From Lentilactobacillus raoultii (GTDB lineage Bacteria; Bacillota; Bacilli; Lactobacillales; Lactobacillaceae), in assembly GCF_900411375.1 (NCBI RefSeq), contig NZ_LS423005.1, forward strand, positions 1 to 64,000: a stretch of 64,000 nucleotides of DNA, given 5' to 3'. The notes beneath the pieces were generated by a model. It saw only the letters and a program-made list of their open reading frames with translations, was not told the DNA's origin and did no database searches. Positions 1,155 through 16,525 of this stretch are shown here, in pieces. The translations under genes were made by a program, and so were the position numbers. Position 1 is the first letter of the stretch. Each line of letters opens with the position of its first letter.

Positions 1155-1232
1155 TTTTAACAATATGTATTAACTTTTTTAAATAGGTCATGTAAAATTT
1201 ATTTGTACCTAAAAATTCTGGGGGGATTTATT

Positions 1233-2468
1233 ATGAATAAGAAGAATCACCATGTTGGCCAATGGATTTTGGCTGTTATTGCAATTTTGTTTATTGCATT
1301 GATTTCAATGCGACCGGTTAAGGCTGATCAAGCTAGTCTTGGTGATGGGTCTTACAGTGTTCCTGTAACATTATTAAAATCTGGTAGTAGTGCGACTTCA
1401 ATGGCCAATGTGTTTTTTAAAAACACCGCTAATGTTAAAGTCACTGGTTCACAATACCAAATCCAGTTAAACACTACTGGTGCGAATTACATTAAGTCAA
1501 TGACCATGGGAGGTCAGGCGGTGAATGAAGAAGATCGCTCAGGTTCAAATGCGACATTAACTGTGACGTTAACTAGTCCCAGTGACCTGATTCCCGTAAC
1601 ATTCGACTTACAGATGATACCGATTCTTGGTGCAATGAAACAATCAGCTCAATTTCAATTTGATTGGTCGAATGCGACTAGAACGGAAGGTGCCTCGACA
1701 AATGAATCGAGTGCTGGCAATAGTGGCGCAGCAACACCGGCTGCCACTTCGTCTTCAACATCTAGCACGCCAGTTGTTTCATCGTCAAGCAGTTCCGTTG
1801 TAACGAGGGAGCCCAATATGGTGGCCCCATCAACCGCAACCAAGAAGGCCACTAAGTCAAAGAAAGTGTCCAATAAAGCCAATGCAGCTACATGGAAATA
1901 CGTTGTCTTAAAGGCTGATTCTAATGCAAAATCAATGGCCAATAAGTACTATACTCACGTTGCACAAGTTAAAAAGATCAAGCACCATTATCAAGTTTTA
2001 CTAAAGGTTAGTTATAAAAAGTCGCTTAAATTAGGTTCTAAAGCCGTTCGGCCGATTTTAATCAATGGTCGAAAGCCGGCAAATATTAAATATGGATCAA
2101 CGACTAAGACATATACAATGACTTATTCATTCAATGTTAGTTCAACAAAGACATTGAAGAAGGTTATTGCCGGTAAAATTCATGTGAAGGTGCCTTATCT
2201 CAATATTAGCCAAACTTTCGGGATTAGATTTAAGTTTAGCCATGCTGCAACGACTTCTAAAACCGCGACAAAGGTAACCAAATCAAGCAGTCATCAATTA
2301 AAAGCTAAAACAGCCACGGCTTTACCAATTGCACGCAGTCAATCTAAGAGTAAAAGTGAACAATTACCACAAACTGGTAATGATCGGAATACTTCTGCCT
2401 CAGTTATTGGGGCAGTCCTTGGAAGCGGTCTCTTATTTAGCTGGGGGTTAAGTCATGAAATTAAATAA
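1233..2468 (+). CDS. Two-NEAT-domain LPXTG surface protein, probable heme capture
   Basis: A 411-aa cell-wall protein. The start is set by GGGGGGA (1220-1226) just before ATG 1233. Order: signal peptide (about 1-32), NEAT domain 1 (about 39-145), Ser/Thr/Ala linker, NEAT domain 2 (about 221-336), basic Ser/Lys linker, sorting signal LPQTG (378-382), hydrophobic segment and short tail. NEAT domains take heme from host or medium proteins; each here has the lip-helix signature (ATSMANVFF; AKSMANKYY). At the strand that normally carries the heme ligand motif YxxxY, domain 1 has M135/A139 and domain 2 has I325/F329, so neither keeps the usual ligand tyrosine. Heme binding may use other residues, or the protein may bind hemoproteins. 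First gene of the uptake operon; sortase A is at 47431-48150. Confidence 0.88.
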   Translation: MNKKNHHVGQWILAVIAILFIALISMRPVKADQASLGDGSYSVPVTLLKSGSSATSMANVFFKNTANVKVTGSQYQIQLNTTGANYIKSMTMGGQAVNEEDRSGSNATLTVTLTSPSDLIPVTFDLQMIPILGAMKQSAQFQFDWSNATRTEGASTNESSAGNSGAATPAATSSSTSSTPVVSSSSSSVVTREPNMVAPSTATKKATKSKKVSNKANAATWKYVVLKADSNAKSMANKYYTHVAQVKKIKHHYQVLLKVSYKKSLKLGSKAVRPILINGRKPANIKYGSTTKTYTMTYSFNVSSTKTLKKVIAGKIHVKVPYLNISQTFGIRFKFSHAATTSKTATKVTKSSSHQLKAKTATALPIARSQSKSKSEQLPQTGNDRNTSASVIGAVLGSGLLFSWGLSHEIK

Positions 2469-3318
2469 ATTGAAATTTCTACTGTTGATTTTTAGTTTTA
2501 TTATTTCGATTGCAAGTCTTTCAAGTTTCGAAACTGTCGCAAATGCTAAATCAGTTTCTTATAAAGCACTTCGCTATGGGGCAAACCAAACATCCATGGC
2601 AAGCGGCTATTTTGTGAGGCCAGCTACGGTAACTGTTAAACATCATCGATATGTTGTGACGATGCAAATTAAAACGGCTAAGAGTTTATCATCTTTTCCA
2701 GTAGCTGTAAATTGGGTTAATGGTGAAAAGCCCCAGCATGTTCGAAAAATTAAGGACCGGGCTGGCAATTCACACTATTTTTACTCATTTACAACCACTA
2801 ACCTGCGCAAAAAAGTTAACGCTAAATTAGCTATTGATGTTCCCAAGGTTTATAAGGCTCATCACTTAATCACTTTTAAGTTTAATCCAACAGGATTGCC
2901 AAGACTTGGTCGATCCACTGCTTCCACTGCTAAGGTGACAGTTTCCAAATCTCATCCCCAAAAGGCAGTTAAGAAAAAGCAAGTAACACGACCATCAGCG
3001 AGTAAGCGCACACATGTAAATAAGGAAAAAACAACTAATTCACCATCCAAACAAAATTCTTCGGCAAAAGCTGTTAGCCCCAAAAAGTCATCACAATCCA
3101 AAAAACAATCACAGCAGCCAAAAAAATTAAAACAAAGGGCATCGAGTTCTTCTAAAAAGCCAAGTTCGACTGTCAGTTCAACTCCCCATCAAAAAGCGGC
3201 TCCAAAGTCCAAATCAAAGGGTGTTCATTCAAAGAATCATACACCATGGATTGTTAGTGGCGTAGTCGCCGTAGTAGCGGCTATTGGGACTGGCTCTTGG
3301 TTGATTTATCGGCACTAG
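2455..3318 (+). CDS. Single-NEAT-domain membrane-anchored heme-binding protein
   Basis: A 287-aa protein whose start overlaps the previous gene by 14 bases (ATG 2455 after GGGGG), indicating translational coupling. Signal peptide 1-31, one NEAT domain (about 34-143) with lip helix QTSMASGYF, then about 110 residues rich in Lys/Ser/Gln, and a C-terminal membrane helix (about 264-285) ending LIYRH. There is no LPXTG, so it is held by the helix, not by sortase A. On the ligand strand it reads YKAHHLITFKF: Tyr133 stands where IsdA-type domains have the axial tyrosine, and His137 replaces the second tyrosine. It is the best heme-ligating NEAT domain of the operon, probably a relay from the wall to the ABC importer. 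Role by family and context. Confidence 0.86.
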   Translation: MKLNKLKFLLLIFSFIISIASLSSFETVANAKSVSYKALRYGANQTSMASGYFVRPATVTVKHHRYVVTMQIKTAKSLSSFPVAVNWVNGEKPQHVRKIKDRAGNSHYFYSFTTTNLRKKVNAKLAIDVPKVYKAHHLITFKFNPTGLPRLGRSTASTAKVTVSKSHPQKAVKKKQVTRPSASKRTHVNKEKTTNSPSKQNSSAKAVSPKKSSQSKKQSQQPKKLKQRASSSSKKPSSTVSSTPHQKAAPKSKSKGVHSKNHTPWIVSGVVAVVAAIGTGSWLIYRH

Positions 3319-3333
3319 GAGGCCTTAAAATAA

Positions 3334-4242
3334 ATGAAAGGGTCACGAAAAATTGGCTTAGTCTTTTTAGCGGTCATTGCCGTCATCGGAATCGGGTTAG
3401 GTCTTGTTTTTGGTTTTCGATCAACTAAGCCGCGTCAAACCAAGCCAAGAATTATCGCAACGACTTATGCCGTTGTCCAAATTGCGGACAAGTTGGACTT
3501 GCCATTAGTGGGCGTGCCGACAACGGCCAATAAAATACCCACTCGTTATAAAAATGTTGCTAAGGTTGGTAATCCGATGAATCCAAACGTGGAAAAAATT
3601 GCTGACTTAAAGCCGACAGTGATTTATTCTGTTACAACTTTAAAGGATCAATTTGGGAAAGCATTTTCTAAACGACACATTAAGCCCTATTTTTTAAATC
3701 TAACTAGTGTTAAAGATTTGGAGACGACGGTTGCTCAGATGGGAAAACGGTATCAGCGAACCACTCAAGCAAAGACAGCGATTAGCCAAATTAATCAGGC
3801 AAAGCGCCAAGCTAAAAAAATTGCTTTAACGCATCATCGACGCCCCCGTGTACTGGTCTTAATGGGTTTGCCTGGTGCTGCCTACATGATTGGCACCAAT
3901 CGTTCTTATGTTGGTAACTTGGTGGCCACTGCAGGTGGTCGAAATGTTTTTAGCTCATCAAATCAGGAATATATTCAACCAAATGATGAAGCGATTAAAA
4001 AAGCGAACCCAGACGTTATTCTCCGACTAGAGCACGCACTTCCGAAGATGGTGACAGCACAGTTTAAACAAGCGTTTAAAACTGATCCAATGTGGTCAAC
4101 TTTGTCAGCGGTTAAACATCATCGAGTTTATGATCTTCAGGAACCTGATTTCGATGCGACAGCTAATATGAAAGCTGCTACTGCAATTAAAAAGGTTTCA
4201 AAGTGGCTATACCCACAAAATGGGGGGGGCTCAATGCGGTGA
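3334..4242 (+). CDS. Heme ABC importer, substrate-binding protein (IsdE-like)
   Basis: 302 aa, after a strong AGGAGG site. Periplasmic-binding fold of the FecB/IsdE type (about 38-298). The N-terminus has a hydrophobic helix (about 8-28) but no cysteine at all in the protein, so it cannot be a lipoprotein; it is probably tethered by an uncleaved helix. Met82 in GNPMNPNVEKI and His234 in LRLEHALP sit where IsdE of Staphylococcus aureus has its Met and His heme ligands (placement from memory of the family). It would pass heme from NEAT proteins to the permease encoded next, whose start overlaps this stop codon. A siderophore or other metal chelate as substrate is possible, but the NEAT neighbours favour heme. 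Confidence 0.85.
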   Translation: MKGSRKIGLVFLAVIAVIGIGLGLVFGFRSTKPRQTKPRIIATTYAVVQIADKLDLPLVGVPTTANKIPTRYKNVAKVGNPMNPNVEKIADLKPTVIYSVTTLKDQFGKAFSKRHIKPYFLNLTSVKDLETTVAQMGKRYQRTTQAKTAISQINQAKRQAKKIALTHHRRPRVLVLMGLPGAAYMIGTNRSYVGNLVATAGGRNVFSSSNQEYIQPNDEAIKKANPDVILRLEHALPKMVTAQFKQAFKTDPMWSTLSAVKHHRVYDLQEPDFDATANMKAATAIKKVSKWLYPQNGGGSMR

Positions 4243-5195
4243 CAAAACGTGAAGTCATTTGTTATGTAGTGGTTATTATATTGTTGTTAGTCACTATTTT
4301 GGGATCGTTAATGGTTGGGACGACTTTCTTTTCACTAGAGCGCCTTTTAACGGCTTTCTTGGGTCACAATCAAACTGATTTAGCACTCCTGGTTCAAATT
4401 AGGTTGCCAAGAGTATTGGCAAGTTTAATTTGTGGTGGAATGTTGTCAGTTGCCGGCGCAATAAGTCAAGCGACTTTTCATAATTACTTAGCCGATCCCA
4501 GTATTTTAGGGGTTACTTCTGCGGGGAGCTTTCTAACGCTGTTGGCTGGCTTCGTAATCCCGGATTTTCCACTTGATAAGCTAATTTATGCATTTTTGGG
4601 AGGGGGATTGACGCTTGTTTTTCTTTCTTCAAGAACCCTCCTGAAAAATTCTTATAAATTAATTATTGTTGGTGTTGCCCTAAATTTAACGCTTTCTGGA
4701 CTTCAACAGTTGTTTTCCGGTAATTTGCTGGTTGGTACTAACTCATTTAACGGCATTACCTGGCCAGATACGTTAACACTATTGATAATGGGGGTCATCG
4801 GCCTCGCTTTTGCAATTATCTTTTCGCCCTGGGCTAATTATTTAAAAATGCCGGATTCGCAATTAGCACTTCGAGGGGTCACAGCTTCAAAGCTTCGATT
4901 GGTACTTCTGGTAATTGTTGTCTATTTGGCTTCGGGAGCGACTGCTGAAGTTGGGGTGGTTCCTTTTGTTGGTATTATTGTCCCTAACGTTGTTCGATAT
5001 TTGGTGGGACATGATTATCAAACAATTGTGCCATTGTCAATGCTACTGGGATCATGGCTATTACTAATGACTGACACCATCGGTCGAATTATTGTGTTAC
5101 CCGGGGAAATTCCTGTTGCAACAATTATGACAGTTCTGGGTGGGCCATTCTTAATCTGGATGTTGTGGAGGCAAAAATTTAATGAAATTAGATAA
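4239..5195 (+). CDS. Heme ABC importer, FecCD-family permease (IsdF-like)
   Basis: 318 aa, 8-10 membrane helices of the FecCD/BtuC family: RLPRVLASLICGGMLSVAGA near the start of the core, FVGIIVPNVVRYLVGHD (coupling region contacting the ATPase) and GEIPVATIMTVLGGPFLIWML at the end are typical. The frame is open from an ATG at 4203, but the GTG at 4239 forms a GTGA overlap with the preceding stop and lies 9 bases after a run of eight G (4222-4229), so I choose GTG. It forms the membrane channel for the binding protein upstream and the ATPase downstream, with which it overlaps by 14 bases. Confidence 0.9.
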   Translation: MTKREVICYVVVIILLLVTILGSLMVGTTFFSLERLLTAFLGHNQTDLALLVQIRLPRVLASLICGGMLSVAGAISQATFHNYLADPSILGVTSAGSFLTLLAGFVIPDFPLDKLIYAFLGGGLTLVFLSSRTLLKNSYKLIIVGVALNLTLSGLQQLFSGNLLVGTNSFNGITWPDTLTLLIMGVIGLAFAIIFSPWANYLKMPDSQLALRGVTASKLRLVLLVIVVYLASGATAEVGVVPFVGIIVPNVVRYLVGHDYQTIVPLSMLLGSWLLLMTDTIGRIIVLPGEIPVATIMTVLGGPFLIWMLWRQKFNEIR

Positions 5196-5946
5196 TGTTA
5201 GTTTTAGCTTTCAATCTGCTCACCCAATTATTCAGAATGTGTCCGCTGACATCCAACCCGGATCGATTCTTTCGATTGTTGGTCCAAATGGGGCTGGCAA
5301 GAGCACCCTTTTAAAATTAATGGCTCATCAATTGAAGCCAACTTCTGGCAAAATTAAAATTGATGACCGTTCGATTGACCAAATGAGTAATCTTCAACGT
5401 GCTTCAGAAATTGCAGTCGTTAATCAGCAAAATAATTTATATGAGGATATGCGGGTGATTGATGTAGTCAAAATGGGGCGGTTAGTAAAACATCATTTAT
5501 TATCAACAATTGAAGATAAAGAAGTTTTGCCCTTTCTGGAAATGACGAACGTAAGTGACTATGCCTACCGGGGGATGCTACAGCTTTCCGGTGGTCAGAG
5601 ACAGCGAGTTTGGATTGCAGCAGCGCTTGCACAAGAGCCCTATTATTTATTGCTGGATGAACCAACCACTTATTTAGATATTCGGTACCAATCAGAATTG
5701 ATGGCTATTATTCGAAACTTGCATCAAACTCAAAAGATAACGATTGTGATGATCCTTCACGACATTAATCAAGCTTTTAAAATTAGCGACCGACTATTGT
5801 TTATTAAAAATGGGCGATTAATTGCTAGTGGCAAACCGATTCAATTTTATGATGAGCAACTACTAAGCAGAGTCTTTCAAACGTCAATTCACATTGTCAA
5901 AATTCCCGGATACGGCCCCTATATTATTGAATTACCATCCAATTAA
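5182..5946 (+). CDS. Heme/iron-chelate ABC importer, ATPase
   Basis: 254 aa, single ABC ATPase of the FepC/FhuC class. Walker A GPNGAGKST (about 34-42), Q-loop in VVNQQNN, signature LSGGQRQRVW, Walker B YLLLDEP, D-loop TTYLD and switch histidine in ILHDINQAF are all intact. The ATG at 5182 overlaps the permease gene. It powers the importer and is the last gene of the operon; a strong bidirectional terminator follows at 5991-6050. All key residues are present, so the system should be active. Confidence 0.92.
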   Translation: MKLDNVSFSFQSAHPIIQNVSADIQPGSILSIVGPNGAGKSTLLKLMAHQLKPTSGKIKIDDRSIDQMSNLQRASEIAVVNQQNNLYEDMRVIDVVKMGRLVKHHLLSTIEDKEVLPFLEMTNVSDYAYRGMLQLSGGQRQRVWIAAALAQEPYYLLLDEPTTYLDIRYQSELMAIIRNLHQTQKITIVMILHDINQAFKISDRLLFIKNGRLIASGKPIQFYDEQLLSRVFQTSIHIVKIPGYGPYIIELPSN

Positions 5947-14615: not shown

Positions 14616-15227
14616 ATGAGAAAATATATTGGTTTAGTCGGAACAACGACTGCCAAGTCAACTAATCGACAGCTTCTAAAGTTTATGAAACGTCATTTTG
14701 AAAAACAAGCGACGATTGAATTGATTGAAGTATCCGGATTACCAATGTTTAACAAGCCCCAGGATTTGAAAGTACCGCAGCGAGCAGTCGAAATTGCCAA
14801 AAAAATTAATAGCAGCGATGGTGTGATTATTAGTACACCGGAATACGATCATGCGGTACCGGCGGTTTTAATGAATGCTTTGGAATGGCTGTCCTATGGG
14901 ATTCATCCATTGCTTGATAAACCAGTGATGATCATCGGGGCTTCATTTGGATCTTTAGGAACTTCCAGAGCGCAGGCCCACTTGCGTCAGATGCTGGATT
15001 CTCCAGAAATTGGCGCTCGGGTGATGCCTAGTTCTGAATATTTGGTTGGCCACGTTCTTGAAGCGTTTGACAAGGATGGCAATTTATGTGATCAGGAGAA
15101 AATTGATCAATTAGACGCCCTATTCGCTGATTTTGAACAATTTGTCAAAATTTCAAAAGAACTTTGGCATACAGAAAAAGCTGATCGAAAAGCAATTCAG
15201 AAGCTTGATAAACAGGATTTTAAGTAA
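14616..15227 (+). CDS. NADPH-dependent FMN reductase family protein
   Basis: 203 aa, single flavodoxin-like domain. The segment [21 protein letters not shown] is the family hallmark (PEYxxxxPxxLKNAxDWxS), and the N-terminal [15 protein letters not shown] is the FMN phosphate loop region. Such enzymes reduce FMN, quinones or azo compounds with NAD(P)H; the substrate here cannot be told. ATG 14616 follows GAAGGGATG. The paralogous, longer gene begins 15 bases after the stop, so the two form an operon. This copy lacks the PAS domain and the tail motifs of its neighbour. Cytoplasmic: no signal or membrane helix. Confidence 0.88.
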
Positions 15228-15241
15228 GGAGAGTGCGTCAT

Positions 15242-16525
15242 ATGAAATTAGTAGGAATTGCCGGCACGGTGGAAGATAAGTCCTATAATAAAATGTTACT
15301 TCAATTTATTGCGAACCATTTTAGCCAGTTAATTGATATTGAAATTCTAAGCATTGATGATATCCCGATGTTTGATCAGGATAACGATCAAACAAACAGC
15401 GGCGCCATTCAGTATTTGAATCGTAAAATTGCGGGTGCCGATGGCGTCATTATTGCAACGCCTGAGCACAATCATACTATTACGGCAGCCCTAAAAAGCG
15501 TGATTGAATGGTTATCATTTAAAGTTCATCCATTTTCAGGCAAACCAGTGATGATCGTTGGTGCTTCTTATTATGAACAAGGGTCATCAAGAGCTCAGTT
15601 GAATTTGCGACAAATTTTGGAAGCCCCGGGCGTTAATGCAATTGTCTTTCCAGGAAATGAATTTCTTTTGGCTAACGTAAAGGAAGCATTTGACGATAAT
15701 GGTAATTTAAAGGACGAGAAAACGGTTGCCTTTCTTCAAACAACACTTCAAAAGTTTCTGAAATTTGTCGAAGTCATTAATACAATGAATCAGAAACCTA
15801 AGGGCGGCAGTGATGCTTCCGACAGTGAAGATTTAAATGCTACCGGAAAAATTTCGACGACAGTTGAGGGTGTTGATATGGCAGCCGATGATTGGGTTGA
15901 GAAGGCGGCAGAGAAAGTTAAGGCGGTTGATGGGTCGACTTATGTTAAATTGGATCGGGGGTTATTAACGGTTGACCAGCTTAATTATTTTCTGAATTCA
16001 ATGCCAATTGAGTTGACGTACGCTGATAGTAACAATCAGTTTATTTATTATAATAAAATGACCGAGACTAAGAAAATGCTGGCACCAAGGCGTCCCGGCC
16101 AAGTCGGTGACCCATTGGCACTCGTCCATCCCAAACGGGCAATTAAAGGCGTTAAGCACGTGATTCACGCATTGCGAACTGGCCAAACCGATTTGGTTAA
16201 AATGCCGGTTCCTGGAAATGGTCCCGATAAGTATATTGTGCATTATTATAAAGCGATGCACGATGAGAAGGGCAAGTATGTCGGAATCAATGAATTTGTG
16301 GCAGACATTATGCCGATTGTTAAATGGTATCTAAAGAAAACGGGCCAAAAGTTAACGGTTGATCCCAATGCCAAGGCTGACGCAAACACTGGCGCATCAG
16401 CTAAGGATGATCAAACTGATGACTCTGCAGATGCCAATACTGGGGCTTCAGAAAAGGAAGAACCAACGGCGTCCACTAGCACTGAAACCAGTAGTGATGC
16501 GACGACTGGTGCATCAGAAAATTAA
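15242..16525 (+). CDS. FMN reductase-PAS fusion with three flavinylation-like tail motifs
   Basis: 427 aa. Residues 1-185: flavodoxin-like NADPH-FMN reductase domain ([21 protein letters not shown]). About 235-360: a PAS-like domain ([20 protein letters not shown] ... YYNKM ... [16 protein letters not shown]), of the kind found in DUF438/PAS_10 proteins. Residues 370-427: acidic low-complexity tail with three copies of D-A-[N/T]-T-G-A-S at 380-386, 397-403 and 419-425. These fit the ApbE flavinylation consensus Dxx[ST][GS]A[ST], in which FMN is joined to the last Ser/Thr. I infer a multi-flavin electron relay; no ApbE gene is in the window. Start: AAGGAG (15226-15231) is 10 bases before ATG 15242, whereas the upstream GTG 15233 is too close. 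Confidence 0.85.

Follow-up and report, generated by a model that had tools for sequence, protein, structure and literature searches.

Predicted ApbE flavinylation sites on the disordered tail of a PAS-linked FMN reductase in Lentilactobacillus raoultii and its relatives

What would a flavin reductase of a lactic acid bacterium do with three covalent flavin attachment motifs in its tail, and are these motifs used at all? This question is raised by a protein encoded in the analysed window, a stretch of 64,000 nucleotides of Lentilactobacillus raoultii. The original prediction described it as an FMN reductase-PAS protein whose tail holds DANTGAS twice and DATTGAS once, and both statements were confirmed: the three motifs are present in the open reading frame and fit the ApbE consensus D-x-x-[S/T]-G-A-[S/T], which ends in the modified residue (PMC12052999), and the FMN_red and PAS_10 domains were identified by Pfam (Table 1). 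The reading frame starts with an ATG, an alternative GTG is situated upstream at 15233, and the gene of the partner FMN_red protein ends 5 bp before this GTG. Promoter and terminator scans gave hits at shuffle level only, and for neither of the two FMN_red genes was an NCBIfam model found above its cut-off. With an E limit of 1, Pfam matched no FMN_bind domain in the protein. Judged by reading the sequence, it has no signal peptide, and the FMN_red domain begins at residue 1. The PAS fold was confirmed by the domain match and by fold comparison, with 2QKP and PF0695 (3cax) as best folds. A LOV-type FMN site in the PAS domain was rejected, since the LOV and haem PAS folds scored far weaker than 2QKP and 3cax, and no ligand can be named.

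Table 1. Positions of the FMN_red gene pair and of the domains and tail motifs in the window.
Feature	Positions	Strand	Length or evidence
FMN_red-PAS_10 protein, FRedB-LjPAS type fusion, three-motif C-terminal tail	15242..16525	+	427 aa
FMN_red domain (flavodoxin-like NAD(P)H:flavin reductase), residues 1-146	15242..15679	+	PF03358 E 2.8e-35
PAS_10 domain, residues 247-356	15980..16309	+	PF13596 E 5.1e-27
Disordered tail, residues 377-427	16370..16522	+	pLDDT <50 over 377-427
Motif 1 DANTGAS, from residue 380, predicted FMN-bearing Ser386	16379..16399	+	sequence
Motif 2 DANTGAS, from residue 397, predicted FMN-bearing Ser403	16430..16450	+	sequence
Motif 3 DATTGAS, from residue 419, predicted FMN-bearing Ser425	16496..16516	+	sequence
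Partner FMN_red protein, FRedA type, without PAS or motif	14616..15227	+	PF03358 E 2e-32

The gene pair resembles an enzyme that has been characterised in Lactobacillus johnsonii N6.2, where purified FRedA and FRedB form a heterodimeric NADH oxidase that has two FMN sites and produces H2O2, while the 28-kDa PAS protein LjPAS slows the assembly of the dimer (Valladares 2015, PMC4500961). The window likewise encodes an FMN_red pair and a PAS_10 domain, the two FMN pockets and the reaction from NADH to H2O2 being those of the L. johnsonii proteins. The pocket residues Ser14 and Phe44, named for FRedA/B in the same paper, are invariant in 31/31 sequences; they were matched by number and context, and are the only two named pocket residues matched by number. 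With these conserved residues, an adjoining second FMN_red subunit and the PAS_10 domain, the protein shows the traits of a FRedB/LjPAS-type fusion. In L. johnsonii, however, the PAS protein is encoded by a separate gene and was treated as a regulator; fusions of LjPAS to an FMN reductase were reported for other species including L. plantarum (PMC4500961). Hence, the claim of an undescribed system was too strong, because the 2015 study already covered the three proteins and the fusion of PAS to FMN reductase, and flavinylated FMN_red tails followed in 2024 (PMC11334425), and the proposed NADPH dependence has to be replaced, since the characterised relative uses NADH. Those PAS-only open reading frames among our sequences whose genus was taken as Lactobacillus are probably counterparts of LjPAS, as suggested by their size and architecture.

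It might be argued that the tail motifs are just a low-complexity repeat of Ala, Ser and Asp that is not modified in vivo, a view to which the finding that Ser is a poorer acceptor than Thr for the ApbEs tested so far (PMC12052999) lends some support. The codons of the three copies differ (GAC GCA AAC ACT GGC GCA TCA, GAT GCC AAT ACT GGG GCT TCA and GAT GCG ACG ACT GGT GCA TCA for motifs 1 to 3), hence a recent duplication at the DNA level was rejected. In 200,000 shuffles of the 61-residue tail, a single motif or more arose in 2.5% and a pair or more in 0.02%, while three never occurred. The other stop-to-stop reading frames of the window with at least 150 aa contain a single strict motif, in a NEAT-domain protein. 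Conservation among orthologues, which had been set beforehand as a test, was analysed with homologues from 47 named loci (L085-L088 match the FMN_red part only), 120 stretches of a Lactobacillaceae sample, 40 stretches from the rest of the order, and additional short loci. They provided 146 distinct FMN_red-PAS tails, five of which fell outside the accepted length of 15-260 residues. The remaining 141 tails, the window's own included, are related sequences and contain 399 strict motifs, whereas 1000 shuffles yielded 2.46 on average and never more than 9. Strict motifs were absent from 7 tails, while 9 have one, 35 two, 55 three, 26 four and 9 five to seven; if Ala is allowed at the fourth place, two or more motifs exist in 140/141 tails. 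Moreover, Asp is found six residues before the end at 442/486 [GS]A[ST] sites of the tails, and the last residue is Ser in 428/438 motifs. A chance or low-complexity origin was rejected by the shuffling.

The number and chemistry of the motifs are kept among homologues while the linkers vary. The gaps between motifs range from 1 to 76 residues, and the last motif ends 1-5 residues short of the C-terminus in 138/141 tails. The linkers had been called acidic, however, across the family they are rich in Ala, Glu, Pro, Thr and Lys and not simply acidic. The motif copies rise with the number of PAS domains: proteins with one PAS domain (n=138) have a median of 3 and a maximum of seven motifs, while three homologues with three PAS domains have 7, 8 and 9, which are placed after the FMN_red and after the PAS domains. 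This architecture, FMN_red plus three PAS_10 domains, is found at loci L245-L248 with 6-9 flavinylation-like motifs, the frame at L247 ending inside the third PAS domain with 6 motifs. At least one strict motif occurs also in 38/43 PAS-only frames, the 5 motif-free ones including some Lactococcus-like cases, whereas only 2/208 FMN_red frames of the size of the partner have a motif, namely the Lactococcus-like tail proteins of L235 and L236. Some single cases deserve mention. A distant second PAS_10 branch (L194-L208, ~28-38% identity) has tails with 1-5 motifs, and apbE adjoins in 10/15 of these loci. The tail of the Lentilactobacillus diolivorans homologue (L043:5986-7350) contains relaxed motifs only, with Ala at position 4 (e.g. 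DADASAS, DTDASAS, DATASAS), and apbE is situated in the same cluster, which makes it a natural test of the tolerance of ApbE at this position. In Lentilactobacillus farraginis (L053:6607-7904) the homologue occupies two reading frames, with the break inside the PAS domain, due to either an assembly error or a pseudogene.

The presence of apbE elsewhere in the genome was also sought, as the original prediction had suggested. In the window itself, tblastn with two ApbE proteins found nothing credible over the whole length, hence also a hidden apbE remnant was rejected. The genome has one apbE copy on another contig (C9; PF02424, E 5.9e-72), the product of which shows by eye neither a signal peptide nor an N-terminal hydrophobic segment. 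Two FMN_bind targets are encoded in the same genome, hence this apbE does not exist for the tail protein alone. Among 301 Lactobacillaceae genomes, counted raw with kinship ignored, apbE was found in 121 of the 122 with a PAS-tail gene, the exception being a genome of 76% completeness. FMN_bind domains are the classic substrate of ApbE and could explain its presence alone, therefore genomes encoding them were removed. In the remaining 158 genomes, again with kinship ignored, apbE was present in 27/28 with and in 11/130 without a PAS-tail gene; the latter 11 have neither known substrate type. At the level of gene order, an FMN_red-only frame is located directly upstream in 139/141 homologous loci, and apbE lies on the same strand within 1.5 kb upstream in 62/141 (49/119 if only loci with 2 kb or more of upstream sequence are counted), resulting in the order apbE, FMN_red, FMN_red-PAS-tail. 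This unit was found in named Companilactobacillus, Pediococcus, Levilactobacillus and Loigolactobacillus and in other families of the order. Anywhere in the stretch examined, apbE was detected at 71 (by clustering) or 74 (by profile) of the 141 loci. Counting FMN_red-only relatives as well, matches to the protein of the window with an E of 1e-30 or lower were obtained in 228 of 395 genomes sampled across the order.

Taken the motif, its conservation beyond chance and the apbE gene in the genome together, flavinylation of the tail by ApbE is predicted with high confidence, despite the lack of apbE beside the gene, which is usual for ApbE substrates and not defining. The counts of strict motifs, the position of Asp and the coupling to apbE argue against an unmodified repeat, as does the flavinylation proven for tails of Lactococcus kin (PMC11334425), so that such a repeat appears very improbable.

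Those kin are the FMN_red proteins WP_021723379.1 of Lactococcus lactis and WP_205872264.1 of L. taiwanensis, for which Ser/Thr-dependent flavinylation has been demonstrated; their C-terminal extension contains one or two motifs, their genes are co-localised with apbE, and a figure legend marks a serine in the flavinylated FMN reductase (Huang 2024, PMC11334425). The window's protein shares with them the FMN_red domain and the C-terminal extension with the ApbE motif, but it has three motifs behind a PAS domain, and its apbE is encoded on another contig. In the accessible passages of Huang et al., the two text matches of 'pas' belong to other words. Our comparison is based on eight Lactococcus-like loci (L229-L236); here, an FMN_red frame without PAS and with 1-4 motifs is followed by apbE, and at four of these loci apbE is followed in turn by a PAS frame of its own that has no motif. 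Several ApbE sites on one chain, as predicted here, are also known from FMN_bind-repeat proteins (Meheust 2021, PMC8238504; SaFMN3 and CbFMN4, PMC10339131), however, these are described as extracytosolic and carry FMN-binding domains, while our sites reside in a disordered tail and the protein lacks a signal peptide. The hydroxycinnamate reductase HcrA/HcrB of L. plantarum, which needs NADH and FMN (PMC10295242), likewise consists of an FMN_red partner and a main subunit containing FMN_red, but the frames of 764-835 aa taken as HcrB-like (L263-L267) have one motif each (one relaxed) and a large C-terminal part. FMN_bind is present in frames of this length from the family search. A paper joining FRedA/B/LjPAS with flavinylation by ApbE was not found in a literature search that covered mostly sources outside subscription journals. 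What exists already is the FRedA/B/LjPAS enzyme and the ApbE-flavinylated FMN_red tail; new is a widespread variant in which the FRedA/B reductase carries a disordered, PAS-linked tail with several predicted flavin sites.

How could such a tail work? The FRedA-type and FRedB-PAS-type proteins would form a cytosolic heterodimeric NADH:flavin reductase, and the cell's own ApbE would transfer FMN from FAD onto the last Ser of each tail motif (Ser386, Ser403, Ser425). Because the tail is flexible, its FMNs could act as tethered, swinging carriers, which would enter the two shallow FMN pockets between FRedA and FRedB, pick up hydride and pass the electrons outward. With air the acceptor would be O2, giving H2O2 as shown for the L. 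johnsonii kin, and without air probably soluble fumarate-reductase-type flavoproteins. SaFMN3, a multi-FMN protein of a different type, is likewise quick to react with O2 once it is reduced (PMC10339131). We regard this mechanism of a multi-FMN carrier as a whole as evenly balanced between true and false. Alternatively, the tail FMN may serve as a leash that keeps the two FRedA/B pockets supplied with cofactor, with spare motifs aiding the loading. Cofactor retention has been argued for the Lactococcus FMN_red tails, the sites of which are near the flavin pocket (Huang 2024, PMC11334425), it would fit to the FMN KD of ~2 uM at two sites per FRedA/B dimer (PMC4500961), and the eight Lactococcus-like frames without PAS carry their motifs all the same. 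However, two pockets need fewer than the mostly three motifs of our family, not to mention up to seven behind one PAS domain or 7-9 with three, and tails are also found on the PAS-only frames. Two motifs are thus explained by retention as well as by a carrier, three to nine less well, and we consider a mere leash rather unlikely. Against the carrier count, on the other hand, the preference for Ser-ending motifs, the own apbE on another contig, the 79/141 loci without apbE in the near upstream region, the tails without strict motif including that of L. diolivorans, the 5 motif-free PAS-only frames, and the activity of the L. johnsonii FRedA/B with free FMN (PMC4500961).

A further possibility is that the PAS domain senses a ligand or the redox state and slows the assembly of the heterodimer, in which case flavinylation of the tail would be a switch that tunes this effect and not an electron path. 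The confirmed PAS fold is in line with such a role, and the initial rate was roughly halved when LjPAS was pre-mixed with FRedB (PMC4500961). The accessible passages of that paper leave tail motifs unmentioned. Its available text has no match for 'ApbE' or 'covalent', hence the purified LjPAS was probably unmodified, and two to nine conserved FMN sites are not obviously needed for a switch; a regulatory function therefore seems improbable. In contrast, the carrier reading might be extended to LjPAS itself, which would then be a carrier and not a regulator: the FMNs on disordered tails would form a swinging arm built by ApbE that feeds O2 or Frd-type flavoproteins, the flavin of LjPAS would have been missing in the earlier assays, and Lactobacillales would possess a cytosolic relay without FMN_bind domains. 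For this combination of claims our expectation is tentative, leaning somewhat to the negative.

Regarding the acceptor without air, soluble fumarate-reductase-type flavoproteins have no NADH module. A natural fusion of 1024 aa (L208) combines FMN_red, PAS_10, a motif tail, FMN_bind and FAD_binding_2. Genes of FAD_binding_2 type, recognised by similarity to two such proteins, are situated near 22/182 PAS loci and absent from the examined stretch of the other 160. In 16 of the 22 the gene is divergent and encodes 609-662 aa (Companilactobacillus where named), while in six it encodes 460-476 aa, on the opposite strand in two; all six loci also have a fumarase-like and/or transporter-like gene, named by eye. 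Among these loci, that of Lentilactobacillus kosonis (L057) has a same-strand fumarase-frd-transporter run upstream, with gene names given partly by eye. A homologue of the own 464-aa flavocytochrome-c-type Frd was found in 94/113 PAS-tail genomes and in 65/163 others, with kinship ignored, in a search of 276 genomes taken to be the first 276 of the Lactobacillaceae sample. However, 9/113 PAS-tail genomes have neither Frd nor FMN_bind, and most PAS loci are without a FAD_binding_2-type neighbour, hence fumarate reductase was rejected as universal acceptor. The neighbours and the one natural fusion suggest soluble fumarate-reductase-type acceptors too, though not universally. The own genome also encodes a FAD_binding_2-FMN_bind enzyme (L037:1417-3312) with an extra DATTSAS in the interdomain linker besides its FMN_bind motif.

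The original prediction placed the protein next to a respiratory chain. Genes of cytochrome bd (cyd) recur beside the homologues in the two nearest kin examined (L042, L053), but not at L043, L057 and L084, so that this vicinity was taken as local and the cytochrome bd operon was rejected as functional partner; constant neighbours of the family are the FMN_red partner and often apbE. The region 1203-5946 (+) of the window encodes two NEAT-domain proteins, one of which gives a weak match to an LPXTG anchor, and a Peripla_BP_2 binding protein according to Pfam, followed by the permease and ATPase of an ABC importer by eye, and it adjoins an NDH-2-like gene and the cyd genes. It looks like a haem capture set beside a haem-dependent oxidase.

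Collectively, our data join two lines that have been separate so far, the H2O2-forming FRedA/B/LjPAS of lactobacilli and the ApbE-flavinylated FMN_red proteins. If the proposed function is true, the PAS protein had been assayed without its cofactor, and in many lactic acid bacteria the balance of H2O2 and NADH would pass through covalently bound flavins. The chemistry of ApbE, mostly discussed as extracytosolic, would turn out to be widely used in the cytosol, and several working FMNs could be held by no more than a short peptide tail.
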